Assembly: GCA_023954815.1 (NCBI GenBank)
Contig: JAGSHB010000006.1
Location: forward strand, 1 to 64,000
DNA length: 64,000 nt
Origin: Myxococcales bacterium
GTDB lineage: Bacteria; Myxococcota_A; UBA9042
Reading direction: 5' to 3'
Position numbers and translations under genes: made by a program
Part shown: in pieces, positions 1 through 20,110 of the stretch
How the letters are laid out: every line of letters begins with the position of its first letter
How positions within the stretch are numbered: the first letter of the stretch is position 1
The notes under the pieces: model-generated
Seen by the model: only the letters and a program-made list of their open reading frames with translations
Told to the model about the DNA's origin: nothing
Database searches by the model: none

Positions 1-1328
1 CCATCGGCGCAGACATCCTTGGTCGTGCAAACCGTGCCATCGCTGCAGGTCTTGCCATCGAGGTTCTTGGTCGTGCAGCCGCCGGGGCCGGTCGCCGGAG
101 CTGGGTCGCATGCGTCCGCTGTACACGGGTTGCCGTCATCACAGACCTTGGGTTTGGCTTTGCAGATGCCTGACGCGCAAGCGTCACCGGCGGTGCAGGG
201 ATTACTGTCCGTGCACTGGGAGCCGTCGCTCATGGCCTTGTAGGCACAAAATCCAGTCTTTGCGTCGCAGGTATCGGTGGTGCACGGGTTGCCATCATCG
301 CAGCCAACCTGCTGCACGACCTTGCATTTGCCGTCGGTGCACAGCCCGCCAGTGTCACATTTGCTGTCTGTTCCTGGCACACACTTCGCGCCATCGTCGT
401 TGGTGACCGTGCAGCCCGTTGCCGGCTCGCAGGCGTCTTTTGTGCAGGGATTGCTGTCGTCGCAGCCTTTCGGCACGCCAGGCGTACATACGCCCTTCAC
501 GCAGTGATCTGCTTCCTCGCCAGCCAAGCCCTTGCCACCCGTGCAAGCCGACCCGTCATCGCACGGGGTCTTGTCCAACGCCTCGTTGGCGCAACCTTTG
601 CTTCCAGAGCTCTTGCCATCTGGATCGCAGCTGTCCTTGGTGCAGGGGTTGCCGTCGTCACAGCCGAGCGCACTGCCCGCATTGCAGCTGCCGCCGAGGC
701 ACTTGTCGCCCACCGTGCACGCATTGTTGTCATCGCATGGCTGCGCGTCGGCGTCCGTCACCGTGCAGCCAGTCGCCGCGATACAGCCGTCGTCCGTACA
801 GGGGTTACTGTCATCACAAGTCACAGCGGCGCCGCCGTCACAAACGCCCTTCACACACGTATCGGCGGCATCCTTGGTCCCGGTGCATGCGCTACCATCT
901 TCACAAGCCGTCCCATCGAGCGCCTTGTGTGTGCATCCCGTTTTTGCGTCGCAGGCATCTTCCGTACACGGGTTGCCGTCATCACAGTCGACCGCCCCGC
1001 CGGCGGCACACTTGCCGCTCTTACACGCATCACCCGCCGCCGCGGTTCCAGTGCAAGCGCTACCGTCTTCACACTTTTCGCCATCATTGTCAGCGTAAGT
1101 GCAGCCCTTCGACTTGTCGCAGCTGTCGGTGGTGCACGGATTACCGTCCCCACAGTCTTTCGCCACACCACCGCAACTGCCAGACGCACACGAATCAGAC
1201 GTCGTGCAGGCATCACCGTCCGAGCAAGCTGAGCCATCCGCAAGCGGCGTGTGCTGACAGGTCGAGTCTTTGTCCTCTTCAGTAGCTGCGAGGCACTCGT
1301 CCTTTGTGCATGGATTTCCGTCGTTGCA
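1..1328 (-). repeat. Cys-rich A/B module array of paralog 4 (partial)
   Basis: A modules (C-x-D-x-N-x-C-T-x-D-x-C...G-C) alternate with B modules (C-x-D-G-x-x-C-T-x-x-D-x-C...C). A1 to A8 and B1 to B8 can be followed to the window edge. The modules resemble CTDC-type repeats; the DDGN/DxD groups could bind calcium, which is inference. Confidence 0.8.
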
Positions 1329-1613
1329 CCCCTGGTCGTCGCCGGTCTTGCAGGGCGTGGCGCACAGATCATCTCCATCCGCCACGGGGTGACAGTACTT
1401 GCTGTCGCACGCGTCGTTGGACGTACAAACACAACCCAGCGCCCCAGGGCAGCCGTCGTCGATGTCCGCGACGTCCTCCGTGTCTGGTTGAGTGTCTACG
1501 TAAGACCCATCGTCCCGCGGAAGGTCGTCGCCACAGCCACCTGAGGCGACGGCGATGGCAAGCACGAGGCTCGCCAGCCACGGGGTGCGAATCATTAGGG
1601 AGGTCGTCTTCAT
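1..1613 (-). CDS. Giant Cys-rich repeat lipoprotein, paralog 4 (C-terminus beyond left edge)
   Basis: Only the first ~537 residues are inside the window. The start codon is the ATG at 1613, giving MKTTSLMIRTPWLASLVLAI and a lipobox ending SGGC (Cys ~27) followed by GDD, so an exported lipoprotein is expected. An acidic linker follows, then a lead-in module (CPGALGCVC...NDAC...CATPC), then a tandem array of four-Cys modules of the form CDDGNPCTxDxC alternating with CxDGxxCTxxDxC. Fourteen or more modules are visible before the edge. The same order, including an aberrant sixth B module (CVPGTDSKC at about 334-388), occurs in the three complete paralogs immediately upstream, so this is the fourth member of the tandem family and probably ends in beta-sandwich modules outside the window. 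The 94-base gap to the preceding paralog and the shared strand suggest co-transcription. Function unknown; surface adhesion or matrix is inference. Confidence 0.85.
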   Translation of the reverse strand, partial: MKTTSLMIRTPWLASLVLAIAVASGGCGDDLPRDDGSYVDTQPDTEDVADIDDGCPGALGCVCTSNDACDSKYCHPVADGDDLCATPCKTGDDQGCNDGNPCTKDECLAATEEDKDSTCQHTPLADGSACSDGDACTTSDSCASGSCGGVAKDCGDGNPCTTDSCDKSKGCTYADNDGEKCEDGSACTGTAAAGDACKSGKCAAGGAVDCDDGNPCTEDACDAKTGCTHKALDGTACEDGSACTGTKDAADTCVKGVCDGGAAVTCDDSNPCTDDGCIAATGCTVTDADAQPCDDNNACTVGDKCLGGSCNAGSALGCDDGNPCTKDSCDPDGKSSGSKGCANEALDKTPCDDGSACTGGKGLAGEEADHCVKGVCTPGVPKGCDDSNPCTKDACEPATGCTVTNDDGAKCVPGTDSKCDTGGLCTDGKCKVVQQVGCDDGNPCTTDTCDAKTGFCAYKAMSDGSQCTDSNPCTAGDACASGICKAKPKVCDDGNPCTADACDPAPATGPGGCTTKNLDGKTCSDGTVCTTKDVCAD

Positions 1614-1707: not shown

Positions 1708-4700
1708 CTACTTCGGGCTGATAGTCAGCTTGCGAACACGCCAGTACCTGTCTTTGACAGCGATGTGGCAGCGAATTCGAACGTAGACTGTCGGGCTACC
1801 TCCGAAGCTGGAGATATCGATCTCCTTCTTGGTCCACGTTGTACCAACGCCGCCAGGCACGCTGAACTGCTGCCAGATAATGCCGTCATCGCTCACCTGA
1901 ACGTAGCGCGTAGGGCTCTTGCCGGTCTCTTCGAACCGCAGCTTCGGCTTGTTGTGGGTCTTCAGGTTGTAGGCAACTTGCAGGTACGAGGTCGTGTACT
2001 GACCAACGGCGTCCACTTTGCGCTCGATGTAGCCGCCAGCCGCATTGGGGTACCAACCGGTCTCTGACTTCCACTTGCTTGGAGTCGCCACGGTGTTCGC
2101 ATTGACCACCGGGAACACAAACTTGTTGGCGACGCGGAAGTTTCGGACCTGCCACCAATACGTCGAATGTCCCGGCCGACCGCTCGGCCGAATCAGCAAT
2201 CCCTTGTGGCCCTTGTAGGCGCCAAGGTCCACGCTCATGTAGCCCCAGAAGGCCGACGAGACCGGATCCGTGATGGACAACGATTGCCACGATTTGCCTT
2301 CGTCGACACTCACGTCGATGTAGACCGTAGAGCCGTACCGCTGGGCCTCAAACGTCAAGGTCGGAGTTGACAGACCGCTGATATCGACGCGCACCTTGGG
2401 CCACAGCTTGTGATAGCCGTTCATGGTCGTCACGATATCTTTGTGCTTCGGGTTGTTCAGCGAATAGATGCCCGTCTTGCTGTCGTAGGCCCAGAGACCC
2501 AGCGTCTTCATGTGAGACGCTCCCAGATTCAGCGGCGCCTTCACGATAGGCAGTGACGTGTGCTCGCCAATCACCAGATTGCGGACCTTCCAATAGCCGG
2601 TGCTGTAGGAATAGGGGTAGTACCAGAGCCGGATGTGAACCGTCTTTTGCCCCGCCCACGACGACAAGTCGACGACAACAGGTTCAAAGTCCGCACCGAC
2701 CTTGGAGTGGTTGTCCTGATACCAAGCGTCCGACCACTGCACACCATCGAGGCTGACCTGTACCCGCTGCCGGCCGTAGACCGCCATGCTGTCGAACCGC
2801 AGCTCAGGCTTCTTGGCCGCTGACATGTCCACCGTCTTCTTCAGACGCAGGGCTTGGTAGTAGTTCTTGTAGGTGTGGTCGCTGCTCCACGTCGCGGTGG
2901 TGGTGTCGTACTTCCACGACCCCTCGGCAGCCATGTCAGCCGGCTTGATGGCCGCACCGACCTTCATCGAGACCACCTTGTCGAGTTCGCGGAAAGAGAA
3001 GTTGTGGGTCTGTGTCCAGTACGAACTGCTGTATGGCCTCATCATCATACGGATTCGAATCTTCTTACCCGCGAACGGCGTCAGGTCGTACCGATAGGTG
3101 CGGTAGAACGTGTTCGACGGGAGGCTGTAATGGCCCGAAATTGTGGTCCACTTGGCGCCATCCAACGTCACCTGGAAGTAGAAGTACTGCGTACCGTAGG
3201 ACGCCCGATCGTAGTAGATTTGCGGCTGCTTAGTGCCGGCAAGATCAATCCAACGACGCAGCTCGGTGTGGTGGTAGTAGTTCTGCGTGCCGTCGTTCTT
3301 CTCCAGCTTGGACTTCCAAGTCCACTTCGCTTTATTCGGGTCGCACTTCCATGCTGGCCCTTGGACGCGCCAGTAGTTGCACGGCAAATCTGCGCCAAAC
3401 TTCACCGTGGGCAAGGTGATCTTCGTACCCAGCGTGAAGTTCCGGACCTGTTGGTGCTGGGGTTGGGTCGCCTTGTAGATGGGCCGGCCATTGAAGCGCA
3501 TCTCGATCTTCTGACCGACGTAGCCGCTCAGGTCGACCTCGACCGGGCGCCAGATTGGATCGATGTGGTTGGACTTGGTCCAAAGGGTCTGCCATCCACC
3601 ACCAAACTTGCGAACTTCAAAGCGAAGCTCGCCGTATTGGCTCAGCCTCTCGAAGCGAACTACTGCGTTGCTCACGCCCGTCATATCAAAAGTCCGCTTG
3701 TAGACAGCGCCCTGGTAGTAGCCGTTCGGGCTCGGCGTGACGTCGTTGCCCTGTTGCTTCAGACCGGACTTTGCATCGCACGTCCAGCTGTCGCCCTCGA
3801 AGCCCCAATGGCTGCAGTTGAAGGTCTGCGCCCCCCACTTCACCACGGGCCAAGCCGCTGGCGCCTCGGCGATTTCGAGGTTCTTAATTTCGCCCCAGAC
3901 CGAGCTGCTGTACGTCGGACGTGCCGCCAGGCGCACCCAGATGACCTTGTTCTTGTAGGCACTCAGATCCGCCACGTACTCACGCCAAACGTAGTCTGAT
4001 CCGTGGTAGGTGTGCCCTGCGACGGTGACCCACTGGACACCATCCAGACTCACTTGCAGGTACAAGTACCCTCGGTAGTGTCGCTCGTAGAAACGACCAA
4101 TTGGGTTCTTGAGCCCGCTCAGGTCAATGCGCCGCAGCGACTTGCCGTAGTGGTAGGCGTTGTAGGTGATTTTCGAACCGGTCGTCGTGCCCAACTCGTA
4201 GCGGTAGTCATAGACCTTGCCGGTGGGATCGCAGGGTTTCCATGCGTCACCTTCGAGGAAGATATTGTTGCACTTCGTCCATTTGTACGGAGCCTTGATC
4301 GGGCTGAGGTCCGGCGGCGTCGTGGTGAACTTGACGCCTCGAATGTCCATCCACGTGTCGTGGTTGCCGTAGTTGGTGGAGATTCGAATCTCCCAAACAT
4401 CCCCAGGGATATGGCCCAAATCAATGTTGTGGCGGCGCCAGACATAGTCCGCCGTGTTGCCGACCCGCTGCCAGACAGACTGCCAGCCGATGACCCCTTT
4501 GCGGCGAACACTCACCACCAAGCTGCCGTGACGATGCCGCTCCTCAATGACGAGACGAGGCAACTTCACTTTGGAGCGATCGAAGCGCAGGTGGTAACGC
4601 GCCGTATTCGCGTGCACATACGCCGGCGGGGTGGCCTTCACGCCCTTCGACTGAAGCTGATACCCCGCGCCGTCTTTGACGCACTTGAATAGCGGACCCT

Positions 4701-7700
4701 CGAATTGGACATCAGCACAAGATGTCGCACTCCCCCACGGCACAAGCTTCGGCAGCGGCTTCTTCTCGCGGATTTCGAAGCGACGCAGGTGCCACCAGAA
4801 CGTCGAGTTCCACGGCGATGTTGAAAACCGCAGGTAGATCTTCTTGCCAACGTAGCCACTGAGGTCGACCTCACGCTCCCGCCACACATAGTCGCTCGCA
4901 GAGGAACGCGACTGAATCGTCGTCCACACTTTGCCGTCAAAGCTGACCTGCACCTGCTGGTTGCCATTGTAGTAGCGCTCTTCGTAGTACAACCGGGGTG
5001 CCACAGCGCATGACAGGTCGATGATCGGCTTGAGCGACATCCGCTGTTGTGCGTTGAGTGACCCGAGCATCTCGTAGTACGAGCCCTTGAACTTCCACTT
5101 GACCTTGTTGTTCGTCGCGGTCAGCGCCCACAGCCCCGTCTGGCTTGTGGTCTTGTCACTGAAGGACTTGAACGCCGGGTGGCTATTCGGCTTGTGAATG
5201 CAACCAGTCTTCACGTTGCAGCTGTCGTCCGTGCAGAGGTTGTGGTCGTCACATGAGAGCTTCGGCCCAGAGATGCACTTAAACTTGTCGCACTGGTCAT
5301 TCTTCGTGCAGGCGTTTCCGTCCGTGCACTCAGCGGAGTTGGCTGGGAATTGGCAGCCCTTGACCTTGTCGCACTCGTCAGCTGTGCAGACCTTGCCGTC
5401 CGTGCAGACCTTGGCCTTGAGTCCGGCTTTGCAGGTACCGCCAGAGCACTTGTCGCCGATGGAGCAGACGTTGTTGTCGTCGCACAACTTGCTGTTCGGG
5501 GCGACGAGGCAGCCTTTGATTTTGTCGCAGCTATCGTTGGTGCAGACGTTACCGTCGTTGCACACGGTCGGCTTGGTTCCGGCACACTTGCCAGCCTTGC
5601 ACTGATCCGCGCTCGTGCAAGCATCTCCATCGTTACAGGCGCCAGTCAACGCCGCGTAGACGCAACCCTTGAGGTAGTGGCAGCTATCCGACGTGCATGC
5701 GTTGTTGTCGTTGCAAACCGTAACTTTACCGGGCTTGCACTTGCCGTTGCTGCAGGTGTCCCCGACGGAACAGATGTCGCCATCGTTGCATTTGCCAGGC
5801 ACGGCGGATGTGACGCAGCCTTTTTTCGGATCGCAAGCGTCCTTCGTACAGATGTTGTCGTCATTGCAGAGCTGCGCGGGACCCGAGCTACAGGCGCCGT
5901 CTTTGCAGATGTCGCCCTCCGTGCACACATTGCCATCGTCGCAGCCGAGGCCATTGTCCGGCTTGGAGATGCACCCGCCCTTGCCGCCGTCAGCCTTCGG
6001 GTCACAGATGTCTTTGGTGCAGTGTTTGCCGTCGGAGCACGTCTTCGCTGTGCCTGGTGTGCACACCGCGACGCCACCGGCACCGATCCCGCATTTGTCG
6101 TTCGACGTGCAGCCGTTGTTGTCGTTGCATGGGTTCGTGTTGGGCTTGTTGTTGCAGCCCTTCTTGGCGTCGCAGCTGTCATCCGTGCATGGGTTGCCAT
6201 CGTCGCAGCTGAGTTTCTTGCCCGCCGCGCAGCTCCCCTTGTCGCACTTGTCATTGGTGGTGCAGAGGTTGCCGTCATTGCACGCAGCGCCATCCGAAGC
6301 CGTGTTGACGCAGCCGCCCTTCGTGGTCGGGTCACATGCGTCTGTCGTGCAAGCGTTGCCATCGTCACAGCCGCGGGCGACCCCCTTGCAGCCGGCTTGT
6401 CCGCAGACATCCGATTTTGTACAGACGTTGCCGTCGTCGCAGACCACCCCTGTCTTTCCAGGCTTGTAGACGCAGTTGCCCGTCGCTTTGTCGCAGGCGT
6501 CCGACGTGCACGGATTGCCGTCGTCGCAGCCAGTGACCGACACCTTCTTGCAGGCACCAGCCGCGCACACGCCCGTAACCGCGCAGCTGTCACCCTGTGG
6601 CACGCAGGCACCACCGTCCGCAGCCTTGTTGACGCAGCCGCCTTTGGCCCCATCACCCCCTGGGTCGCAGGAATCTGTCGTGCACGGATTGCCATCGTCA
6701 CACGCGGTCAGCGCGCCAGGCAGACACACGCCTCCCTTGCATGCGTCGCCCGACGTGCATGCATTGCCGTCGTCGCAGTCCTTGGTGTTATCCGCGCTGG
6801 TGCAGCCTTTGACCTTGTCGCAAGCCGTGGTCGTGCACGGGTTGCCGTCGTTGCACGGTTGCTTCTTACCGCTGGTGCAGCCCTTGTCGCCGCATACGTC
6901 GCCTACCGTGCAGACGTCACCGTCGCTGCAAGGTGCGCCGGACTGCTGGCTGTAAGTGCAACCCTTATCGCTGGAACACCCGTCGACCGTGCAGGGATTT
7001 CCGTCATCGCAAGAGGTCGTTGTGCCCGGCTTGCAGGCGCCCTTGCTGCATGCATCACCGCCAGCCTTGTCACCTGTGCAGGCGTCGCCGTCATCGCAGG
7101 CCTTGCCGTCCGCATCTTTGCTCTCGCAGCCCGTCTTGGGGTCGCAAGCGTCCGTGGTGCAGGGGTTGCTGTCATCGCAAATCTGAGCGGTGCCGCCGAC
7201 GCACTTTCCTTCGGCGCAAGCGTCGCCCACGGTGCATACATCGTCGTCGTCGCACGGCTTCTTCGCTACGTTGTCATTCTGGCACTTGCCCTCGTTGTCG
7301 CAGTAGTCCGTGGTGCAGGGGTTGTCATCCCCACAGTCCTTCGCTTTGCCAGCAGCGCAGGCACCCGCAGCGCAGGCGCCGTCACCCGAACAAGGATTGC
7401 CATCGTCACAAGCACCACCGTCATTGGAAGGCGTGTGCTTGCAGGTGGCCTCACTCGTCGTTGACGTCGCCGCCTCACAAAGATCCGCCGTGCACGGGTT
7501 CTTGTCGTCGCAACCGCTTTGGCAATCCGTACCGCATACAGCTGAGCCACCCTCGCCAACACAAGTACCGGTGTCACATTCGCCGTCAGTCTTGCAGGGG
7601 CAGCCAATGGCGCCGGTACAAGGGCCGGCGTCCGCGGGTCCTGTGTCCGCCAACGCGCCGTCCTTGTCACCCGCCGTGCCATCACCGGAAGACGCATCGG

Positions 7701-7890
7701 CCGACACACCGTCGACCTGCTCCCCGTCGACCGTGAGCAGACCGTCAGGCGTGCCGCTGTCGAGCGAAACAACATCGCCAACCACGGCTTGATCATCGCC
7801 GCCGCTGCACGCAACCGCGGCAGCACATAGCCCGACCGCTGCGAGCATTCGCAAGCGATGGCTCCAGTTCTGCACAATGCATGACCTCAT
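1708..7890 (-). CDS. Giant Cys-rich/beta-sandwich lipoprotein, paralog 3
   Basis: About 2060 residues. The start is the ATG at 7890 (MRSCIVQNWSHRLRML), with GGAGG a few bases upstream; a longer in-frame extension exists but lacks a signal peptide. The lipobox is AAVAC followed by SGGDD. A short acidic linker and a lead-in module (CTGAIGCPC) precede 15 A-type and 14 B-type four-Cys modules (about residues 127-897). Eight beta-sandwich modules of about 140 residues (about 905-2060) follow, each carrying a signature like DYVWREREVDLSGYVGK and an aromatic-rich ending (WW..RRFEI). Modules 2-5 carry a Cys pair flanking an EGxxW motif; modules 6-8 have none. The sandwich motif resembles jelly-roll/MAM-like domains of secreted bacterial proteins. 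It is probably an outer-membrane or surface lipoprotein. No catalytic motif is seen and the function is unknown. Confidence 0.88.
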   Translation of the reverse strand: MRSCIVQNWSHRLRMLAAVGLCAAAVACSGGDDQAVVGDVVSLDSGTPDGLLTVDGEQVDGVSADASSGDGTAGDKDGALADTGPADAGPCTGAIGCPCKTDGECDTGTCVGEGGSAVCGTDCQSGCDDKNPCTADLCEAATSTTSEATCKHTPSNDGGACDDGNPCSGDGACAAGACAAGKAKDCGDDNPCTTDYCDNEGKCQNDNVAKKPCDDDDVCTVGDACAEGKCVGGTAQICDDSNPCTTDACDPKTGCESKDADGKACDDGDACTGDKAGGDACSKGACKPGTTTSCDDGNPCTVDGCSSDKGCTYSQQSGAPCSDGDVCTVGDVCGDKGCTSGKKQPCNDGNPCTTTACDKVKGCTSADNTKDCDDGNACTSGDACKGGVCLPGALTACDDGNPCTTDSCDPGGDGAKGGCVNKAADGGACVPQGDSCAVTGVCAAGACKKVSVTGCDDGNPCTSDACDKATGNCVYKPGKTGVVCDDGNVCTKSDVCGQAGCKGVARGCDDGNACTTDACDPTTKGGCVNTASDGAACNDGNLCTTNDKCDKGSCAAGKKLSCDDGNPCTDDSCDAKKGCNNKPNTNPCNDNNGCTSNDKCGIGAGGVAVCTPGTAKTCSDGKHCTKDICDPKADGGKGGCISKPDNGLGCDDGNVCTEGDICKDGACSSGPAQLCNDDNICTKDACDPKKGCVTSAVPGKCNDGDICSVGDTCSNGKCKPGKVTVCNDNNACTSDSCHYLKGCVYAALTGACNDGDACTSADQCKAGKCAGTKPTVCNDGNVCTNDSCDKIKGCLVAPNSKLCDDNNVCSIGDKCSGGTCKAGLKAKVCTDGKVCTADECDKVKGCQFPANSAECTDGNACTKNDQCDKFKCISGPKLSCDDHNLCTDDSCNVKTGCIHKPNSHPAFKSFSDKTTSQTGLWALTATNNKVKWKFKGSYYEMLGSLNAQQRMSLKPIIDLSCAVAPRLYYEERYYNGNQQVQVSFDGKVWTTIQSRSSASDYVWREREVDLSGYVGKKIYLRFSTSPWNSTFWWHLRRFEIREKKPLPKLVPWGSATSCADVQFEGPLFKCVKDGAGYQLQSKGVKATPPAYVHANTARYHLRFDRSKVKLPRLVIEERHRHGSLVVSVRRKGVIGWQSVWQRVGNTADYVWRRHNIDLGHIPGDVWEIRISTNYGNHDTWMDIRGVKFTTTPPDLSPIKAPYKWTKCNNIFLEGDAWKPCDPTGKVYDYRYELGTTTGSKITYNAYHYGKSLRRIDLSGLKNPIGRFYERHYRGYLYLQVSLDGVQWVTVAGHTYHGSDYVWREYVADLSAYKNKVIWVRLAARPTYSSSVWGEIKNLEIAEAPAAWPVVKWGAQTFNCSHWGFEGDSWTCDAKSGLKQQGNDVTPSPNGYYQGAVYKRTFDMTGVSNAVVRFERLSQYGELRFEVRKFGGGWQTLWTKSNHIDPIWRPVEVDLSGYVGQKIEMRFNGRPIYKATQPQHQQVRNFTLGTKITLPTVKFGADLPCNYWRVQGPAWKCDPNKAKWTWKSKLEKNDGTQNYYHHTELRRWIDLAGTKQPQIYYDRASYGTQYFYFQVTLDGAKWTTISGHYSLPSNTFYRTYRYDLTPFAGKKIRIRMMMRPYSSSYWTQTHNFSFRELDKVVSMKVGAAIKPADMAAEGSWKYDTTTATWSSDHTYKNYYQALRLKKTVDMSAAKKPELRFDSMAVYGRQRVQVSLDGVQWSDAWYQDNHSKVGADFEPVVVDLSSWAGQKTVHIRLWYYPYSYSTGYWKVRNLVIGEHTSLPIVKAPLNLGASHMKTLGLWAYDSKTGIYSLNNPKHKDIVTTMNGYHKLWPKVRVDISGLSTPTLTFEAQRYGSTVYIDVSVDEGKSWQSLSITDPVSSAFWGYMSVDLGAYKGHKGLLIRPSGRPGHSTYWWQVRNFRVANKFVFPVVNANTVATPSKWKSETGWYPNAAGGYIERKVDAVGQYTTSYLQVAYNLKTHNKPKLRFEETGKSPTRYVQVSDDGIIWQQFSVPGGVGTTWTKKEIDISSFGGSPTVYVRIRCHIAVKDRYWRVRKLTISPK
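1711..5175 (-). repeat. Eight beta-sandwich modules of paralog 3
   Basis: Eight successive ~140-residue modules. Each has a W-rich opening, a strand pair near Y-E-R, a VSxDGxxW strand, the hallmark W-R-x(2-4)-V-D-L-S-x-Y-x-G-K and a closing x-I-R-F...W...R-N/R-F. Modules 2-5 start with C-x(3-5)-[FW]-x(2)-x-G-x(2)-[WF]-x-C, probably a local disulfide. Confidence 0.75.
5180..7512 (-). repeat. Cys-rich A/B module array of paralog 3 (15 A + 14 B)
   Basis: A1 is CDDKNPCTADLC and A15 is CDDHNLCTDDSC, with 14 B modules between. B6 is aberrant (CVPQGDSCAVTGVC, about 6565-6612) and lacks the DDG and CTxxD elements. The DNA copies are diverged, so this is not a young slippage array. Confidence 0.82.
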
Positions 7891-7918
7891 GGAATCCTCC
7901 GACTGGGTCTTCTGCGTG

Positions 7919-7942
7919 GTCTGAGAGAGTTGGTGCTCAGAC
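7919..7942. other. Hairpin between paralogs 2 and 3
   Basis: GTCTGAG and CTCAGAC form a perfect 7-bp stem with a 10-base loop inside the 92-base spacer. No T run follows. It has a position and stem length comparable to the hairpin in the next spacer, at 1674-1691. Confidence 0.4.
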
Positions 7943-7982
7943 TGCTCGTATTCGTATCGACGCATCTCTGTCTCCCACCCGC

Positions 7983-10900: not shown

Positions 10901-13900
10901 CCTGAACCACGCCATGGTAGCGGAGTTGGTAGGGCGTCGTCGTCTTGTCGCACTTCCACGCCGGGCCTTCGTTGCTCCAGTGAGCACAGGTGCTCGCGTA
11001 ACCCCACGGCACAGTCGGTGGCGCCTTGTCTTTCTCGGCAATGCGGATATCGCGAATGTCCCACCAGCTCGACGTATTTTGCGGCACGCCGCGGAACCGC
11101 ACCCAGACAGGAATGCCCTTGTACTGCGCCAGGCTGGCGCTGTTCACACGCCAAATGTGGTCCGAGATGTTGATGTGTTTGGCCAACGGCACCCAGATCT
11201 TGCCGTCTTTGCTGGCCTCCACGAAGAGCTGTCCGCCGTTGTAGCGCTCGGTCCAGTACAGGTAGGGAGCTCCTGTGCACTGCAGGTCGACCTTCTCTTG
11301 GAGCGTCATGGTCTGCGTGCTGCCGGTAGCACCAGTAATCATCCGGTAGAAGCCCGCGCCGGCGTGGCCGAAGGCTTTGATAGTCGTGCTGCCGCCGAAT
11401 GCCCAGTAGTCCTTGTTGTACTTGGCTGGATCAACGAAGGGCTTGAAGGCGTTGGGGCCGTTGGCGACGTGAATGCAACCCTTGGTCGCGTGACAGAAGT
11501 CATCGGTGCACTTGTTCAGGTCGTCGCAGCTCTTGGGTTTGCCACCGACACAGATTCCCTTCAGGCAGGCATCTCCGACCGTGCAGGCGTTGCCGTCATT
11601 GCACAATCGGTCCGTTTTCACGGAGTTGCATCCGGTCTTCGGATCGCAGAAGTCATCGGTGCAGTACACCCCGTCATTGCAGGCCAGCTTCTTCTTGCCC
11701 GGCGTACAGTCACCCTTGGCGCACAGGTCCGCCACGGTGCAGATGTTGCCGTCGTCGCAACCGAGGGAATTGGGCGTCTGGATGCACCCCTTAGTCGGGT
11801 GGCAACTGTCGGTGGTGCAGTGGTTCTTGTCGTCGCAGACCTGCTTGGTGCCCGGGAAGCACTTGCCGGACTTGCATCCGTCACCAACCGTGCACTTGTT
11901 GCCGTCATCGCAGGCGCTATTGGTCGGCTTATGGGTGCAGCCGATCTTCGAGTCGCAGAAGTCGTCCGTGCAGCCATTTTGGTCATCGCAGGACAACGTG
12001 ATTCCCGAATTGCAGACGCCACCCTTGCAGACGTCGTTACTGGTGCACACATCACCGTCATCGCAGCTCGCGCTGTTGCTCGACGCCACGCAACCTTTCT
12101 TCGCGTCGCACGAATCCGTGGTGCAGGGGTTGCCGTCGTTGCAGACCTGGAGCTTGCCGGTCACGCAGAGTCCAGCGGCGCAGACGTCGCCGACTGTGCA
12201 CACGTTGCCGTCGGAGCAAGACAGTTTGGCGACCTTTGACTCGCAGCCCTTCTTGGGCAAGCAACTATCGAGCGTGCAGGCGTTGCCGTCGTCGCAGTTC
12301 TGGCTCTTGCCGGAGACGCAGTGCCCCTTCTCGCACGCATCACCCACGGTGCAGGCGTTGCCGTCGTCGCAGCTCGCGCCTTTGGCGCCCGGTTTGCAGC
12401 CACTGGCCGGATCGCACGCGGCGTCGGTGCACGGGTTGCCGTCACCGCAGTTCTGCGGAGCACCGGGCTGGCAGACCGTACCCTTGCAGGTGTCGCCGAC
12501 GGTGCACAGGTTGCCGTCATCGCAGGCGCTCTTGGCCGAGGCCTTGTGCGCGCAGCCAGCGCCCGGGTCACAGGAATCCGTGGTGCAGACGTTGTTGTCG
12601 TCGCAGTCGGCGGGCGCACCAAGGCAGGCCCCCTTCTTGCACTTATCACCGACGGTGCAGGCGTCACCGTCATTGCAGGATCCACCATCACCCACGGCCG
12701 CGTACTTACAAGCACCGCTGCTAGAATCGCAGGTGTCCGTTGTGCATGGATTGCCGTCGTTGCAGCCGGTCTGCTTGACCGTCTTGCATGCACCGTCGGT
12801 GCAAACGCCGCCTGTGTCGCAAGAGTTACTCGCTGGCACGCAGACAGCGCCGTTGGCCGGAGCCGTCTTGCATCCTTTGACCGGGTCGCAGGAGTCGGTC
12901 GTACACGGATTGCCATCGTTGCACGTCAGACTGCCACCCGGTGTGCAGGCGCCCTTCTTACATGTATCGCCAACGGTACACACCGTGCCATCGTCGCAGG
13001 AGTCGCCGTCGAGTTTGGTGTACTCGCAGCCTTTGCTCTTGTCGCACGCATCATTGGTGCAGGGGTTGCCGTCATCGCAAGACTGAACTTTTGCGGGAGC
13101 GCAGGTCCCGCCGGTGCACGTGTCGCCCGTCGTGCAAACATCGCCGTCTGAGCATGCTGCGCCGTCGTCGTCCGTGACAGTACAACCGGATGCGGGCAGG
13201 CAAGCGTCGGTCGTGCAGGGATTGCCGTCATCACAAGACACGGTCTTGCCGGGTAGGCAAACACCAGATTTGCAGACATCACCGGATGTGCAGGCGTTGC
13301 CGTCGGAGCAGCCAGCTGCCGTATCGCTGTACTGACAGCCCAAGACGCCATCGCATGAGTCCGCTGTGCAGGGGTTGCTGTCGTCACAGGTCAGCGCCGT
13401 GCCACTTGCGCACTTGCCTGACTTGCAGGCATCGCCCTTGGTGCACACGCTGCCGTCATCGCAAGGTGCGCCGTCCTTGTCGGCGTAGTCACACCCTGCC
13501 CCGTCCTTGCATGTATCCGCAGTGCACGGATTGTTGTCGTTACACACCAACAGTTTACCGCTGCACGCACCGCCGGTGCAGTGGTCGGTCGTCGAGCAGG
13601 CGTTGCCGTCGTCGCACGGGGTACCGTTCTTCTGGGCGTCATGGCTACACTTCGCCTCGGTATCCTTGTGTACTGAGGGCGTGCAGCTGTCGTCGGTGCA
13701 CGGGTTACCGTCGTCACAGCCGGGCTTGCCGTCGGTTTCGCAGGGGGTCGCGCACTGGCCAACCTTGGCGACATCCAAACCGGTACACAGCTTAGCGTCG
13801 CAGTCGTCGTTGGCCTCGCACGGACAGCCAACCCCGCCCGGGCAAACGTCACCGCCCGGCCCAATGCCGTCCGGATACTCGCCATCTGCCAATGCGGTAT

Positions 13901-14033
13901 CCGCCGCGCCTGCGTCGTCGTGCTCGGTGGGCAGGTCATCCCCGCAACCAATCACCGCGACGGACAACAAGAGCCCCACGCACCACAACAACCCGGAGTG
14001 TGCCGACTTTGATTTCATGGTTATCCCCATCAT
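7983..14033 (-). CDS. Giant Cys-rich/beta-sandwich lipoprotein, paralog 2
   Basis: Up to 2016 residues. The first ATG (14033) overlaps the stop of the preceding gene in an ATGA arrangement. An in-frame ATG at 14018 (MKSKSAHSGLLW), preceded by GGGGAT, is an equally good start. The signal peptide ends in a lipobox AVIGC followed by GDD. An acidic linker and lead-in module (CPGGVGCPC) are followed by 15 A and 14 B four-Cys modules (about residues 106-853) and eight beta-sandwich modules (about 865-2016), the same layout as its neighbours. Coupling to paralog 1 suggests one transcript and fixed stoichiometry. As in the paralogs, Cys pairs occur only in sandwich modules 2-5. No enzyme motif was seen. 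A surface structural, adhesive or cation-binding role is inference from architecture. Confidence 0.88.
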   Translation of the reverse strand: MMGITMKSKSAHSGLLWCVGLLLSVAVIGCGDDLPTEHDDAGAADTALADGEYPDGIGPGGDVCPGGVGCPCEANDDCDAKLCTGLDVAKVGQCATPCETDGKPGCDDGNPCTDDSCTPSVHKDTEAKCSHDAQKNGTPCDDGNACSTTDHCTGGACSGKLLVCNDNNPCTADTCKDGAGCDYADKDGAPCDDGSVCTKGDACKSGKCASGTALTCDDSNPCTADSCDGVLGCQYSDTAAGCSDGNACTSGDVCKSGVCLPGKTVSCDDGNPCTTDACLPASGCTVTDDDGAACSDGDVCTTGDTCTGGTCAPAKVQSCDDGNPCTNDACDKSKGCEYTKLDGDSCDDGTVCTVGDTCKKGACTPGGSLTCNDGNPCTTDSCDPVKGCKTAPANGAVCVPASNSCDTGGVCTDGACKTVKQTGCNDGNPCTTDTCDSSSGACKYAAVGDGGSCNDGDACTVGDKCKKGACLGAPADCDDNNVCTTDSCDPGAGCAHKASAKSACDDGNLCTVGDTCKGTVCQPGAPQNCGDGNPCTDAACDPASGCKPGAKGASCDDGNACTVGDACEKGHCVSGKSQNCDDGNACTLDSCLPKKGCESKVAKLSCSDGNVCTVGDVCAAGLCVTGKLQVCNDGNPCTTDSCDAKKGCVASSNSASCDDGDVCTSNDVCKGGVCNSGITLSCDDQNGCTDDFCDSKIGCTHKPTNSACDDGNKCTVGDGCKSGKCFPGTKQVCDDKNHCTTDSCHPTKGCIQTPNSLGCDDGNICTVADLCAKGDCTPGKKKLACNDGVYCTDDFCDPKTGCNSVKTDRLCNDGNACTVGDACLKGICVGGKPKSCDDLNKCTDDFCHATKGCIHVANGPNAFKPFVDPAKYNKDYWAFGGSTTIKAFGHAGAGFYRMITGATGSTQTMTLQEKVDLQCTGAPYLYWTERYNGGQLFVEASKDGKIWVPLAKHINISDHIWRVNSASLAQYKGIPVWVRFRGVPQNTSSWWDIRDIRIAEKDKAPPTVPWGYASTCAHWSNEGPAWKCDKTTTPYQLRYHGVVQVPDPNYYANIMLQNLLLDAAKTKNPAITFEERSAGGTLYVDIRKPDGVWENIYTRVSLTDYVWRKRILYVGKYAGSKAQIRFRTTQASSHFGHVRNVRGIDKAPPGIPGTQGVPSKFNSCGLWDYDGSAWTCNPGGKVWDFGWVGDTSSEYNTNYYNHYATWGKRLDLTKVKSAVLRFDRRHYHGYTYLQISETKENWTTVWTTLGGSDYVWRPQIVDLSKFVGKTWYVRFYVRPHGTSYWGQFRNFRAETKPAPLKVSAYGFSLACADWDLVGPSWKCDDAKKPWFLRMDAVNSLPDPGGYNQPATLKRWVDLSKAKAPGFAFEFRRYYSYVHFEVSEDGSAWQKLKSFGPAHDYVWRKAHVDLSKFKGKKIMIRFNGYPSSFGRWGELRNVGFKDIQPVVSVPYTKVKPACSGWDLEGIAWSCADSGQPWHLRFDGQSHAPNPNPYRHHARSKWLLDLKGAKAPTMYFDYRHYYGKLEVIIDGPSDIPKTIYKEGGGYDTVWHGRSVDLSNYAGRKVHVTITVTPAGGPYWGELRNIVFKEQVPVEIAKPGAKLGQADFQPHGGWNWNSKTSRWHLAATQLKTYHWLKSKKAIDLTSLKNPVFIYREATWGPTRYLRVSLDGVNWEVAAMGTNNSDPVVHRRQISLANWKGKKVYIAFSGHPTAPSHWWDVFDMRVTELPVVVKVKPGTQLSPAQWDAEGLWTWTLGSYWNLNHGVTGGSNSDELLPYRQTLSSKVAFDVSGLKKPTFVFSGRNRASSIYVDTSPDRVVWTNLYARGTSGSWPYYWQPTVVDLSSQKSHGALYVRIRGYLSGNQTYWQEVQGATVVEHVGLPTATKGYVVKPTEWKASGEWKWDTGNKWWQVTDLMTSRWHRYSLQKTYSVGSNKSAKLVFDEAYNYGRRYVRVSTNGTTWITVLDHYSSSSKYQKFAERTIDLSTFLSTAGPNPKVYVRLEWFAYQPSNWWRVRNFRFQ
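7986..11450 (-). repeat. Eight beta-sandwich modules of paralog 2
   Basis: Module starts can be recognised at FKPFVDPAKY, PTVPWGYAS, PGIPGTQG, LKVSAYGFS, VVSVPYTKV, VEIAKPGAK, VVKVKPGTQ and PTATKGYVV. Each contains a WR...VDLS-x-[FYW]-x-GK core. The first module has a single Cys in D-L-x-C; modules 2-5 have the Cys pair and modules 6-8 have none. Confidence 0.75.
11460..13718 (-). repeat. Cys-rich A/B module array of paralog 2 (15 A + 14 B)
   Basis: A1 is CDDGNPCTDDSC and A15 is CDDLNKCTDDFC. The aberrant B6 is CVPASNSCDTGGVC (about 12800-12845). Each module carries four Cys, about 116 in all. Even Cys spacing suggests that the array is fully disulfide-bonded in the periplasm or outside the cell. 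Confidence 0.82.
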
Positions 14034-17000
14034 TTCGGCACCACCTTCAGGTTGCGCACGCGCCAGTAGCGGTCGATGCTAGAGATGTGCGAATTCAGCC
14101 GCACATACAGGGTCTTCGCACCAGCAAACGCCGACAAGTCGACGGTGTAGGACTTCATCGTCTGATTGGTACCACCCAAGCTGGACACCAGCTGCCACGC
14201 AAACCCATCGACGCTTACGTAAATCTGGCGTGAGGCGTTTGAATAGGTGGATTCGTAGACCAGCTTTGGCGTCTTTGTGCCAGACAAGTCCCAAGTCACC
14301 TTGGACTCTGCGACGGTGTAGTGACCAATTGCGTCCAGCTTGCGCTCGATGAGATTGAGGCCAGCGTTGGCGTTCCAGCCGCTCTCCAGCTCCCAATCCG
14401 TCACCTTGGCCTTGTAGCCGATACCCACGCTCTTGAGCACAGGACGCTCCAGGATCTGCATACCCCGTGTCTGCCACCAGTACGTGGTGCCATTGAGATA
14501 GCCAGTCATGCGGACCAGGAGCGCCTTCGAGGCTTTCCATTCGCTCAGGTCGACCGTGACTTTCTGCCAAATCGCCGTCGATGACCGAGCCACAGTGTGC
14601 GCCTGCTTCCAAGTCTGGCCGTCGTCATCGCTGACTTCGACCTTGCGCGTGACGCTGCTGTTGCGCTGGTAGAACTGCAGCACTGGGGCCGACATGCCGC
14701 TAATGTTGATCGCTGCGGTGGGCCAGAGGAAGTGTTCCGTGCTGATCCAGGCCGCCGACGACGAGAAGGTTGGCTTGTTCAGAGAGAACTCGCCCGTGGA
14801 GGCATTGTACAGCCACAGCCCACGCTTTTCGAAGTAGGTCGAGCCCAACTTCAGCGGCGCCTTCAAGACGTTCGGGGCCTTATACTCAACGACGCGCGGG
14901 TTCCTGACGGCCCACTGCGCGCCCGTCGCCAGGTTGTAGTAGTAGGCGTAGTGGCGGAACCGGATGCGAACCCCCTTCTTGCCCTTGACAGACGAGAGGT
15001 CAATCCACTCTGGCCGCATGACGCTGGACCGCTTTCCGTGGAAGTTGCGCGTCCAAATCATGTTCCAAGCCTTGCCGTCGAGGCTCACGTCCACGTAGGC
15101 GTACCCGTACAGCCAAGCATGCTCGAAGCGGAGCACTGGCTTATTGGCTGCACTCAGGTCGTAGACCTTCTTGAACGTCAGCGATTGCGTGTGACTGACG
15201 AAATTGTGACGACCCTCGAAACGCTTGTCGACGAAGTCATAGACCCAGCCACCCTCGGTCTCAAGGTCATTGATTGAGACTGTATCTCCGACTTTAGCGA
15301 CGCCAGGAGCCACGTATTCTCCGATGCTGACGTCCTTGATTTCACCCCAGTAGGCTGGGCTGTTCGGCTTCGCCGAGAAGCGGACAAACACCTTCTTGCC
15401 AGTCCACAGGCCAAGGTCGAACTCCCATTTACGCCAAATGAGGTCGAGGCTGTTGGGCGTCACTGCCAGCTCATGCCACTTGAGTCCGTCTTCACTGACG
15501 TAGGCATACAATTGCCCGTAGGAGTGTCGAGCCACAGCGCGAAGCACCGGGTTCTTTAGGCCTGCGAGTGTGACGTAGTGCTTCGTCGACGTGTGATGCA
15601 GGTAGGCGTTGGAATTGACGTTGTTGACGACCGCCGCGCCCTCAAACCGCAGCGTCGGGCCTGACGCCGTCGATTGGCACGCCCAGGCGGAGCCTTCCGT
15701 TTCCCAGCTGCTGCAGCCGAAGGCCACGCCAGGCTTCACCGTCACTGGTGGTTTCGGATTGGTGAGCGCGAAGTTCTTGAACTCACCCCAGTAGCTCGTG
15801 CTGTGCGGCTTGACGATGATGCGCAGACGCACAGTTCCGCCGTTCTTGTACGCTCCCAAGGGCAGCATCAGGTGACGCCACACGAGGTCGTGGGTGTTGC
15901 CGACGCTGTACAGGTCATCCCATTGGATCCCGTCCCCACTGGCTTGGATCTTCACGGTGCCGTAGTAGTGCCGGAAGTCGATTTGCGCGTGAGGGTTCGG
16001 CTGACTGGCGATCTTGTAGACGCGCTCGTTGGTCAATGCGACCCAGTAGCCCCCAGGCAATCCGACCGGAACGCTGTAGCGAAACTGGTACTTGGTCTTG
16101 AGGGGATCGCAGCTCCATGTGGCATTTTCAGCCACCCAAGCGCCGCAGTCATGTTTCGGTGTCCCGAAAGAAACGACCGGCCATGGCTTGGGAGCCTCAG
16201 CGACGCGAATGTTGCGCAGACGCCACCAACGGTTCGTTGAGTGGGGCACATAGCCAATGCGAATCCACACCTTCTTGCCGAGGAATTGACCGAGGTCGGC
16301 GCTCACCTTGCGCCAAACGGTGTCGTGCGTGTTGCCGACCGTCCATACCGAACTCCAGGAACCGCCGTCTTCGCTGACCTGCACGGCGACGGTGCCGTAG
16401 TAGTGACTGTGCGAGAAGGTGAGCTGCGGGTCCTTGGCCTTCGTCAAGTCGAGCTGCCGCTGGTACTTGGCGTAGTGCCAATACCCATTGGCATGCTTGG
16501 TCGGAGAAGCGTCCGACTTTGCCTGAAGGAACCAGTCAGTCTTCGTGGAATCGCACTCCCACACCGTGTCTTCCAGTGTCCAGTCGCCGCATGAGGTCAA
16601 CGCCTGCCCGTAGGGGAGGATGGATTTCTGGGTCGGCTTGGTGCCAAAGGTAATCCGACGGATGTCGCCCCAGTGGAAGTAGGTGTTGCCGTGGGGATTG
16701 TAGACGGTAAACCGCATCTCAACGACGTTGCCCTTGAAATCACTCAGGTCGACCACGCGTTTTCGCCACGCATAATCCGTTGTGTGACCACGCAAGAACG
16801 CTTCACCCCAGTCGCCATCCGGTGAGCGCACTTCGACCTTCAAGATGCCGTAGTAGTGCCGTTCCTCGAACGTCAGGTAAGGCTTGCTCACCTTCGAGAG
16901 GTCAAAGCGGAGATGGAAACGCGCGGTGCTGACATGCCGATTTGGATTGGGGATGAGGTTCGCGCCCTTGTAGTTGAGTTGGTACGAGGTGCCGTCCACG

Positions 17001-20000
17001 CCGCAGGACCAACCCGGCCCTTCCGTCTCGAAGTTCGCGCAGCCGACCTTCGTGCCCCACGCCACCAGCTTGGGATCGGGGTCTGACTCTCGTACCGCGA
17101 TGTTGCGAATGTTCCACCAATTGTTGGTGGAGGTCGTCTTCGAGCGGAACCGCACGAGGATCTTCTTGCCCTTGTAGCCAGTCAGGTCCAAGGCTTGGCG
17201 GCGCCAAATGTAATCGCTCTGACCGCCGCGAATCAGTGATGGCGACCATGTCTTGGCGCCGTCGTCGCTGATTTCGACCCAGTAGGAACCCCCACTGTAG
17301 CGTTCTTCGAAGTAGAGCGTTGGGTTGAATGCACACGACAGGTCGACCTTTGACTGAATCGTCATCGTATGCGTGCCATTTTGCGGGGCGGAGAGCGCAT
17401 ACCAACCGGTACCAGCGTGTGTGAACCTCACCGGCCCGGTGCTCGCCTTGAACTCCCATTTGCCGCTGTTCTTCGAGGCATCATCGCTCATCGCGCTGAA
17501 CGGCTTGTTGCCGTTGGGCGCGTGCGTGCAGCCGGTCTTGGGATTACACGCGTCATTGGTGCACAGGTTCTGGTCGTTGCAGTCGAGCTTCGGCCCAGCA
17601 ACGCACTTCCAGTACTTGCAGCTATCCGAGGTGGTGCAGGCGTTGCCGTCGTCACAGGGTGCGGTGTTGGCGAAGTGCTTGCAGCCAGGCCCCGGGTAGC
17701 ACATGTCCTGCGTGCAGACATCGAGGTCGTCGCAGTCTTTAGTCTTCCCGCCAGCTACGCAGGCGCCCTTGCTGCAGACATCACCCAGCGAGCAGGCGTT
17801 GCCGTCGTCGCAGGGCGCCGAGTTCGGCACGTTCACGCAACCTTTGACGGTGTCGCAGCCGTCGTTGGTGCAGGCGTTGGCATCTTCGCAGAGCTGTCCG
17901 GCGCCGGGGGTGCATTTGCCGCCGATGCAGGTGTCGCCGACGGTGCAGGCGTTGCCGTCATCGCACTTCGCCTCGGTCAGCGCGTGGGTGCAGCCGGTCT
18001 TCGGGTCACAGGCATCAACGGTACAAGCGTTCTGGTCGTCGCAGTTTTGGTAAGGACCAGCGACGCACTTTCCTGCCTTGCAGACGTCACCCACCGTGCA
18101 TACGTCGTTGTCGCTGCAGCTGGCTGTATTCGGGTTGCCCACGCAGCCCTTCTTCGGGTCGCATGCGTCCTGCGTGCAGACGTTTTGGTCGTCGCAGAGC
18201 TGGACTTTGCCGGGAATGCACTTTCCGGATTGGCAGACATCGCCCGTCGTGCAGACATTTTCATCGCTGCAGCCGGATTTGTCGTCGATGACAAACTTGC
18301 AGCCTGGTTTGGAACCGCCCACACCCGGGTCGCACAGGTCGATGGTGCAGGGGTTGCCGTCGTCGCAGAGCTTGGCGGTGCCGCCCTCACACGCGCCCCC
18401 CTTGCAGGTGTCCTTCGTTGTGCAGGCGTTGTTGTCGTCGCACGGCGCGGCGTTGTTCTTCGGAGCGCAGCCCTTCGTCGCGTCGCACAGGTCGTCGGTG
18501 CACGGGTTGTTGTCACCGCAATCTTGGAGGGCACCCGGAGCGCACTTTCCGTTCTTGCAGGTGTCACCAACGGTGCAAACACTACCGTCGGAGCAGCCAG
18601 CGTTGGGGATCGGCGTGTACACACAACCTTTGGCCCCGTCGCAGCTGTCGCTGGTGCAGGTGTTGTTGTCATTGCACGTCATCTTGCCGCCGCGGCATTC
18701 GCCCTTGACGCAAGCGTCGCCGGCGGTGCACGCAGCGCCGTCGTTGCAGGTGCTGCCGTCTTTGAGCGGCGTGAAAACGCACTTACCTGACTGCTTGTCG
18801 CAGGCGTCTGTGGTGCAGGTCTTGCCGTCGTCACAACCCACCTGTGCGACGGGCTTGCAGACGGTCGCCTTGCAAATACCGCCGACCGTGCAGCTGTTGC
18901 CAGCGGGGATGCACTTGCCACCGTCCGCAGCGACGTGGACGCAGCCCTTCGTGAGGTCGCAGCTGTCTTTGGTGCAGGCGTTGCCGTCGTCGCAGGTCAA
19001 AGCCTTGCCCGCCTGACATCCGCCACCGGCGCAGGTGTCTCCCGTGGAGCACGCGTTGCCATCGTCGCAAGATGCGCCCGGCTTCAGGGGCGTCGATACG
19101 CAGCCTTTCTTTGCGTCACAACCGTCAGCGGTACACGGGTTCCCGTCGTCGCATGGCTGCGCCTTGCCGCTGATGCACGCTCCAGATTTGCAGGCATCGC
19201 CGATCGTGCAGGTGCTGCCATCATCGCAGGCGGCGCCGTCATCAAAAGTGTGGACGCAGCCGCCGTCACCCTTGCCGGAGCCTGGGTTGCAGACATCCTT
19301 GGTGCAGGCCTTTCCGTCGTCACAGGCGACGGTTTTGCCACCGACACAAGCGGCGCCCTTGCAAGCATCACCGCTGGTGCAAGCGTCGCCATCGTCGCAC
19401 TCAGCGCCTTCTTGGGCCTGATGAACGCAGCCTTTGGCCTTGTCGCAAGAGTCCGTGGTGCATGGATTGCCATCTTCGCAATTCTGCGGCTTGCCGGGCG
19501 CACAGCCACCAGCGACGCAGGCGTCGCCGACGGTACACACGTCGTCGTCGTCGCAGGCCCCATCGCTGTCGTCGTGTTTGCATCCCTCAGCCGGGTGGCA
19601 CCAATCCGATGTGCAGGGGCTGCCGTCATCACAGTTCAGAGCAGTGCCGGTGCAGGCGCCGGACGCGCATTTGTCGTCTTCTGTGCAGAGCGTTCCATCG
19701 CTGCATGGCTCGCCGGCCGCCCCAGGAGCGTGGGTGCAGGTGTCTTCCGCATCCGTGGAAGTCGCTCCGACACAGAGGTCCACGGTGCACGGATTGGTAT
19801 CGTCGCAATCCTTTGTGCACGGGTTGGCGCAAACACCTTCTGCGCATACACCGCTGGCGCAGTCATCGTCGCCAGTACAGTCGCAACCCAGCGCGCCCGG
19901 GCATGCAGCAGCGTCCACTGGCCCCGTGTCCATCAGGACTTGAGCATCCATGGCTCCGCCAGTGTCTTGGCTGATGCTATCCAGTTTCTGCCCGACTGGC

Positions 20001-20110
20001 TGGTCGTCAACGCCGCTGCAAGCCGCACCGAACAGTGCAAGAGCGGCGAGCATGGCGCAGCGCCGGACCAGGATGGAGCGATTACCGTGAGGTAGCGCAA
20101 TGTGGGTCAT
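14030..20110 (-). CDS. Giant Cys-rich/beta-sandwich lipoprotein, paralog 1
   Basis: About 2026 residues. The start is the ATG at 20110 (MTHIALPHGNRSILVRRC), preceded by GAGGT. The in-frame extension upstream lacks a signal sequence and was not used. The lipobox is FGAAC followed by SGVDD. It has a lead-in module (CPGALGCDC), 15 A and 14 B four-Cys modules (about residues 102-861) and eight beta-sandwich modules (about 870-2026). It is the first gene of the visible tandem cluster and its stop overlaps the start of paralog 2. The 533-base region upstream presumably carries the promoter. It differs from the others in several A-module variants (CDDGKACTKD, CDDLDVCTQD) while the register is unchanged. 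Function unknown; an outer-membrane or surface lipoprotein is the most likely class. Confidence 0.88.
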   Translation of the reverse strand: MTHIALPHGNRSILVRRCAMLAALALFGAACSGVDDQPVGQKLDSISQDTGGAMDAQVLMDTGPVDAAACPGALGCDCTGDDDCASGVCAEGVCANPCTKDCDDTNPCTVDLCVGATSTDAEDTCTHAPGAAGEPCSDGTLCTEDDKCASGACTGTALNCDDGSPCTSDWCHPAEGCKHDDSDGACDDDDVCTVGDACVAGGCAPGKPQNCEDGNPCTTDSCDKAKGCVHQAQEGAECDDGDACTSGDACKGAACVGGKTVACDDGKACTKDVCNPGSGKGDGGCVHTFDDGAACDDGSTCTIGDACKSGACISGKAQPCDDGNPCTADGCDAKKGCVSTPLKPGASCDDGNACSTGDTCAGGGCQAGKALTCDDGNACTKDSCDLTKGCVHVAADGGKCIPAGNSCTVGGICKATVCKPVAQVGCDDGKTCTTDACDKQSGKCVFTPLKDGSTCNDGAACTAGDACVKGECRGGKMTCNDNNTCTSDSCDGAKGCVYTPIPNAGCSDGSVCTVGDTCKNGKCAPGALQDCGDNNPCTDDLCDATKGCAPKNNAAPCDDNNACTTKDTCKGGACEGGTAKLCDDGNPCTIDLCDPGVGGSKPGCKFVIDDKSGCSDENVCTTGDVCQSGKCIPGKVQLCDDQNVCTQDACDPKKGCVGNPNTASCSDNDVCTVGDVCKAGKCVAGPYQNCDDQNACTVDACDPKTGCTHALTEAKCDDGNACTVGDTCIGGKCTPGAGQLCEDANACTNDGCDTVKGCVNVPNSAPCDDGNACSLGDVCSKGACVAGGKTKDCDDLDVCTQDMCYPGPGCKHFANTAPCDDGNACTTSDSCKYWKCVAGPKLDCNDQNLCTNDACNPKTGCTHAPNGNKPFSAMSDDASKNSGKWEFKASTGPVRFTHAGTGWYALSAPQNGTHTMTIQSKVDLSCAFNPTLYFEERYSGGSYWVEISDDGAKTWSPSLIRGGQSDYIWRRQALDLTGYKGKKILVRFRSKTTSTNNWWNIRNIAVRESDPDPKLVAWGTKVGCANFETEGPGWSCGVDGTSYQLNYKGANLIPNPNRHVSTARFHLRFDLSKVSKPYLTFEERHYYGILKVEVRSPDGDWGEAFLRGHTTDYAWRKRVVDLSDFKGNVVEMRFTVYNPHGNTYFHWGDIRRITFGTKPTQKSILPYGQALTSCGDWTLEDTVWECDSTKTDWFLQAKSDASPTKHANGYWHYAKYQRQLDLTKAKDPQLTFSHSHYYGTVAVQVSEDGGSWSSVWTVGNTHDTVWRKVSADLGQFLGKKVWIRIGYVPHSTNRWWRLRNIRVAEAPKPWPVVSFGTPKHDCGAWVAENATWSCDPLKTKYQFRYSVPVGLPGGYWVALTNERVYKIASQPNPHAQIDFRHYYGTVKIQASGDGIQWDDLYSVGNTHDLVWRHLMLPLGAYKNGGTVRLRIIVKPHSTSYWGEFKNFALTNPKPPVTVKPGVAFGCSSWETEGSAWACQSTASGPTLRFEGAAVVNNVNSNAYLHHTSTKHYVTLAGLKNPVLRAVARHSYGQLYAYVSEDGLKWHELAVTPNSLDLIWRKWEFDLGLWTGKKVFVRFSAKPNSPAYWGEIKDVSIGEYVAPGVAKVGDTVSINDLETEGGWVYDFVDKRFEGRHNFVSHTQSLTFKKVYDLSAANKPVLRFEHAWLYGYAYVDVSLDGKAWNMIWTRNFHGKRSSVMRPEWIDLSSVKGKKGVRIRFRHYAYYYNLATGAQWAVRNPRVVEYKAPNVLKAPLKLGSTYFEKRGLWLYNASTGEFSLNKPTFSSSAAWISTEHFLWPTAAINISGMSAPVLQFYQRNSSVTRKVEVSDDDGQTWKQAHTVARSSTAIWQKVTVDLSEWKASKALLVRMTGYLNGTTYWWQTRGMQILERPVLKSVGIGYKAKVTDWELESGWNANAGLNLIERKLDAIGHYTVAESKVTWDLSGTKTPKLVYESTYSNASRQIYVSVDGFAWQLVSSLGGTNQTMKSYTVDLSAFAGAKTLYVRLNSHISSIDRYWRVRNLKVVPK
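14033..17508 (-). repeat. Eight beta-sandwich modules of paralog 1
   Basis: Eight ~140-residue modules with cores such as DYIWRRQALDLTGYKGK and DTVWRKVSADLGQFLGK. Cys pairs flank E-x(3)-W in modules 2-5 only (GCANFETEGPGWSC through GCSSWETEGSAWAC). Confidence 0.75.
17510..19807 (-). repeat. Cys-rich A/B module array of paralog 1 (15 A + 14 B)
   Basis: A1 is CDDTNPCTVDLC and A15 is CNDQNLCTNDAC. The aberrant B6 is CIPAGNSCTVGGIC (about 18871-18916). The register is identical to paralogs 2 and 3. Confidence 0.82.

Follow-up and report, generated by a model that had tools for sequence, protein, structure and literature searches.

Fibrillar adhesins are among the closest described systems to the genes considered here: a long tandem stalk holds distal putative binding domains off the anchor, and a survey of these proteins ties varying stalk number to the regulation of binding (PMC8286594). 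A second point of comparison is the Dicty_CTDC family (PF00526), an extracellular cysteine-rich repeat for which contact-based modelling found no good structural template (PMC8078820); CTDC is unmentioned in the text of the fibrillar adhesin survey. Both bear on a cluster of four tandem lipoprotein genes in a Myxococcales bacterium (assembly GCA_023954815.1), located on the minus strand of positions 1-20365 of the stretch that we analysed (contig JAGSHB010000006.1, positions 1 to 64,000; hereafter the window). Three of the genes are complete and are transcribed in the order P3, P1, P2; a fourth copy, P4, is represented by its N-terminal part and is cut by the contig edge. The A modules of the cluster fit the Dicty_CTDC profile, but the cluster proteins are bacterial lipoproteins in which A and B modules alternate in a 29-module register, followed by a jelly-roll tail. 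They share the general layout of fibrillar adhesins; in contrast to the varying numbers of the survey, the four paralogs stand at one exact module number.

We would also make the distinction between these proteins and two further systems. TraA, the kin-recognition receptor of Myxococcus xanthus (PMC13184517), resembles them as a myxobacterial surface receptor that joins a binding domain to cysteine-rich repeats, but the cluster proteins have a predicted N-terminal lipid anchor and a distal, C-terminal tail of eight domains. No NCBIfam match to the MYXO-CTERM tag was found in them; their C-terminus is the last jelly-roll domain. Giant1-5 of Apilactobacillus kunkeei (PMC12863079) are likewise encoded by consecutive genes for giant extracellular proteins, but they consist of beta-solenoid domains, reach 3,000 to 8,000 amino acids (aa), and are described in the abstract without a fixed register.

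In P1, P2 and P3 a lipobox is followed by a cysteine-rich lead-in, then by the stalk, and last by eight domains homologous to one another (~125-160 aa each), which is the plan set out for them by the original prediction, made from this DNA alone. A lipobox cysteine stands at the N-terminus in 4/4 window genes (LFGAAC, AVIGC, AAVAC and SGGC, read in the sequence). With an A module defined as C-x5-C-x4-C-x5-C and a B module as C-x5-C-x5-C-x4-C, cysteine-pattern parsing resolves each complete stalk into 29 strictly alternating modules, ABAB...A (15 A and 14 B, as had been claimed), with exactly 116 cysteines per array (29 x 4). The A modules are Pfam Dicty_CTDC (E 1e-50 to 3e-62) and the B modules a close variant; the profile scores 206, 183 and 170 bits against a curated cut-off of 27 bits, over 13-15 stretches per protein. 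A fixed count over ~750 residues had also been proposed, and here the count stands (29/29) while the residue length does not: module number and order are constant, and stalk length varies between 748 and 777 aa because loops within the modules take insertions of 4-8 aa.

The fourth gene conforms to the same plan once it is joined across two contigs. P4 runs through 15 modules up to window base 1, where the contig edge truncates it, and contig C52 of the same genome ends in an open frame that comprises 13 modules and a tail of 1164 aa. Eight nucleotides (CCATCGGC) are common to both contig ends, and the in-frame join completes module 15 and yields 29 modules. A sister species of the same genus (an uncultured Myxococcales metagenome-assembled genome, G003, CALENB010000524) also carries four tandem genes of 29 modules each, in an order A-B-C-D that corresponds to P3-P1-P2-P4; its D gene aligns to contig C147 up to the edge and then to C52 from its end, with only a few bases between. 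Twenty-nine modules are therefore present in seven complete genes of two species and in the joined P4, all eight genes have tails of 1162-1165 aa, and the counts in a related genome, on which the idea of a fixed register hung, are invariant. It might be argued that short-read assembly collapsed longer arrays to one length, both assemblies being fragmented (314 and about 590 contigs). We consider this extremely improbable, as exact repeats within the arrays do not exceed 30 nucleotides (nt), sequences specific to an index can be told apart, and the two assemblies, made separately, give the same result for each of four diverged genes.

Beyond the window species and its sister, which belong to one genus, the cluster was not found. 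The eight-domain tail profile matched only 2 genomes among 379 from Myxococcota, each a member of this genus, and gave no match in the two further genus members searched (92% and 67% complete); a two-row tail alignment run against genome contigs had the sister genome as its sole match. The flanks of the four-gene block show no synteny between the two species and offered no functional clue.

The register is ancestral. Between paralogs, modules of the same index score 40-48 and modules of one type but differing index 32-36; in none of the paralog pairs did more than 11 of 20,000 permutations (range 0-11) attain the observed same-index score. Four positions are strongly marked: index 0 has an 11-residue loop common to the cluster genes, and in all eight genes index 11 is an aberrant B module (C[VI]P..SC, absent from every other array examined), index 12 an A module with a 6-residue C3-C4 loop and a 10-residue linker, and index 13 a B module with a 6-residue linker. 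The N-terminal part of P4 carries the same marks as the complete genes. When these four positions are removed, 5/6 pairs still lie at 2-14 of 20,000 permutations; the weaker exception is P1-P2, with 733 of 20,000. Of the six-module windows, 77/96 had their best match at the same index in a different paralog and 1/96 within the protein itself, and a tree of AB pairs, with modest support, holds 17 index-pure clades versus 2 protein-pure ones. Spacing is almost invariant across all paralogs in modules 15-28; loop insertions are tolerated in modules 2-14, where paralogs differ and orthologs are mostly alike. Modules of one index group across paralogs and not within their own protein, the check that the original prediction had named, and this grouping together with the common marks upholds its proposal that genes were duplicated whole, with the register already in place. 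The pattern is genuine and of ancestral origin, it is kept across species, and duplication of a finished lipoprotein gene as a whole is its best explanation.

Whether a fixed count is unusual depends on the distance at which it is judged, and the premise that repeat arrays normally drift is only partly right. Between the two species, most other CTDC arrays, including arrays of 40-61 modules, pair without a module-size gap; a constant count is hence ordinary at ortholog distance, and most human protein repeats have likewise kept the number and order of their units for long periods (Schaper et al., 2014; PMC3995336). The exceptions are L055/L059 (~12 modules), L054/L074 (~6) and a few smaller ones; the first pair (L055:3612-8795 and L059:2657-7069), orthologous arrays ~12 modules apart, represents real drift. 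Among paralogs, the cluster stands out: one pair of neighbouring genes has 58 versus 32 modules at 46% tail identity, further pairs with homologous tails have 26 versus 16, 24 versus 19 and others, and none of the paralog pairs examined elsewhere in the two genomes has a matching array layout, whereas the cluster paralogs hold their count at 28-36% tail identity (about 32%). What is unusual is the exact common plan in four strongly diverged tandem paralogs, with sibling arrays varying. CTDC arrays are abundant in general, with 260 matches in the window genome (G000) and 291 in the sister genome on many contigs (e.g., L036, L037, L052-L055 and L063), among them dozens of proteins of 1000-3000 aa in both genomes; one protein of 2967 aa (L063:1818-10721) has 92 modules in nearly perfect ABAB order.

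Structure prediction gave confident models for a bacterial CTDC chain and for the jelly-roll tail, neither of which plain sequence search could relate to a known structure (the PDB, searched with stalk or tail alone, returned no match). AlphaFold2 modelled eight stalk modules, with 83 eight-module windows as alignment, at a predicted local distance difference test (pLDDT) of 91 and a predicted template modelling score (pTM) of 0.53, a low value of the kind expected for an extended chain. Every module is predicted to form a small beta-hairpin, in strictly periodic arrangement. Of the defined superstructure that had been proposed, the periodic modules are supported by the model, and the stalk as a whole may be an extended rod. 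The top Foldseek neighbour of the stalk model was the cysteine-rich part of the Entamoeba histolytica Gal/GalNAc lectin heavy chain (E 8e-4), an adhesin with a chain of small cysteine-rich pseudo-domains (PMC12948311), but at a template modelling (TM) score of 0.15 and a root-mean-square deviation of 27 Å the resemblance is local, and we rejected homology.

A single tail domain (64 alignment rows) was modelled as a jelly-roll (pLDDT 89, pTM 0.85), with structural matches at E 1e-5 to 1e-3 to InhA, the MAM domains of neuropilin-1 and meprin, the K3 cleaved-adhesin domain of Lys-gingipain, and carbohydrate-binding modules (CBM61, CBM29 and CBM11), as well as to a surface glycan-binding protein. 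The likeness is in fold only, as the tail scores 15-20 bits with Pfam MAM and InhA-MAM (PF20773), below the cut-off of 26.9. When the tail-domain profile was run against the PDB, a flagellin-hook entry appeared at 1e-4 with no single stretch passing, and InhA came next at 0.37; we treated this result as weak. Total tail length stays within its 1162-1165 aa although single domains differ by up to 7 aa, and shuffled domain lengths give so narrow a range in 1-2% of cases (P about 0.01-0.02).

Compared with the fibrillar adhesin architecture, the tandem stalk domains are present as 29 modules with a periodic model, and in the place of the distal adhesive domain stands a fold that matches MAM, gingipain K3 and the CBMs, with no Pfam model above its cut-off. 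Fold and architecture would together point to adhesion, and lipobox and architecture to exposure at the surface. The same CBM matches, the match to a glycan-binding protein and the aromatic content of the tails (13-15%) could instead indicate lipoproteins for polymer capture or nutrient binding; we find this unlikely, given that the proteins have no catalytic domain, that the named window neighbours include no clear glycan-degradation gene set, and that the flanks are not conserved.

With moderate confidence, we suggest that the four genes encode a matched set of outer-membrane-anchored, fibrillar adhesin-like lipoproteins, whose equal plan is kept for equal reach. The ancestral gene would already have had the full plan and been duplicated whole, and the four copies would then have diverged to ~32% tail identity with module count and order, the place of the joint and the length of the tail all retained; the likeliest reason is that joint display requires them to reach equally far. 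In each protein the lipid anchor would hold the chain in the outer membrane, next to a short acidic linker; the stalk, made of 29 CTDC modules closed by disulfides and bearing an irregular joint at modules 11-13, would provide reach; and the eight distal domains of MAM/InhA/cleaved-adhesin type would bind a glycan or protein ligand. The four paralogs may serve four ligands or one joint structure.

Several points weigh against this proposal. Stable counts are common elsewhere at ortholog distance, so that selection on reach is not required; on the cluster tree about 3.7 module events are expected from the ortholog rate and 0 were observed, for which the Poisson P is 0.024 and rises to 0.28 with fitted rate heterogeneity between arrays (module events were counted by hand from gap lists and are approximate); stalk residue length is not constant; the tail-length compensation test is post hoc and covers four lineages; and the tail stays below every Pfam gathering score. 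On these figures, selection on length is plausible and falls short of proof. The count may simply have been inherited and frozen, without selection on length, if the modules were already too diverged at duplication for slippage or unequal crossing-over. The stability of most other arrays, that of human repeats and the higher of the two P values agree with a frozen count, as does the finding that the longest exact internal repeats measure 14-30 nt in all arrays. We nevertheless regard it as a possible but somewhat unlikely account: equally self-similar arrays drifted at the same species distance (L055/L059, L054/L074), all other examined paralog pairs differ in layout, and the cluster loops accept insertions freely, so that indels do arise there. 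The cluster arrays have longest repeats of 19-30 nt, within the range of the drifted arrays, and recombination substrate hence does not set them apart; the idea that they are, unlike others, too diverged internally to recombine was rejected. Four paralogs within a single genus, set beside dozens of sibling CTDC arrays of which some drift, make the locus a natural test of stalk-length selection.

A stronger version of the proposal, in which module number is a ruler under direct selection, so that 29 modules and a fixed joint set four different heads at one height over the outer membrane or build one heteromeric filament or lattice, is tentative, and we hold it to be rather unlikely. Quite unlikely, in our estimate, is that the proteins are not four independent adhesins but subunits of one heteromeric structure (a bundle, ring or sheet) that needs them equal. 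The four-gene order is kept though the flanks are non-syntenic, the start of P1 overlaps the stop of P3 by 4 nt (ATGA) in what is probably a four-gene operon, and counts, tails and joint are common to all. Charge could contribute as well, an acidic stalk pairing with a neighbour's basic tail: in the seven complete proteins the stalks have an isoelectric point (pI) of 4.1-4.4 and a net charge of -44 to -74, and the tails a pI of 8.2-9.7. This complementarity is weak in the sister species, where tail net charge is +4 to +21. The window species has tails of +41 to +64, each of P1-P3 above all of the sister proteins (R_A-R_D). Within one species paralog charges are alike, and tail charge varies mainly by species; the suggestion that each paralog has a different surface chemistry did not hold at this level, as all seven proteins combine an acidic stalk with a basic, aromatic tail. 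The coordinates of the four genes are given in Table 1.

Table 1. Coordinates of the four lipoprotein genes and their parts (window positions unless a contig is named).
Feature	Position	Strand	Basis or remark
Gene 1 (P3, ortholog of R_A)	14030..20365	-	Open reading frame; probable start ATG at 20110; mature protein 1996 aa
P3 lipobox Cys	20020-20018	-	LFGAAC, read from sequence
P3 stalk, 29 alternating A/B CTDC modules (15A+14B), 760 aa, 116 Cys	17528..19807	-	Module parsing, Pfam PF00526
P3 irregular joint, module indices 11-13	18695..18913	-	
P3 tail, eight MAM/cleaved-adhesin-like jelly-roll domains, 1165 aa	14033..17527	-	
Gene 2 (P1, ortholog of R_B)	7983..14033	-	Probable start 14033 or 14018; mature protein about 1987 aa
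P1 lipobox Cys	13946-13944	-	
P1 stalk, 29 modules, 748 aa, 116 Cys	11475..13718	-	Module parsing
P1 irregular joint, module indices 11-13	12624..12842	-	
P1 tail, eight jelly-roll domains, 1163 aa	7986..11474	-	
Gene 3 (P2, ortholog of R_C)	1708..8220	-	Open frame; probable start near 7890; mature protein 2033 aa
P2 lipobox Cys	7809-7807	-	
P2 stalk, 29 modules, 771 aa, 116 Cys	5200..7512	-	Module parsing
P2 irregular joint, module indices 11-13	6388..6606	-	
P2 tail, eight jelly-roll domains, 1163 aa	1711..5199	-	
Gene 4 (P4, ortholog of R_D), N-terminal part	3..1613	-	Contig edge cuts module 15
P4 lipobox Cys	1535-1533	-	
P4 (partial) irregular joint, module indices 11-13	162..383	-	
P4 remainder, 13 modules and 1164 aa tail	C52:26035-30543		Same genome (G000)

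Elsewhere in the window, the open reading frames at 33231-34874 and 60573-63985 on the minus strand (547, 616 and 544 aa) gave no Pfam match. At 34850-39539, on the same strand, a LolA-like protein gene adjoins two genes for FtsX-family permeases, an arrangement that resembles a putative lipoprotein-sorting or export unit.
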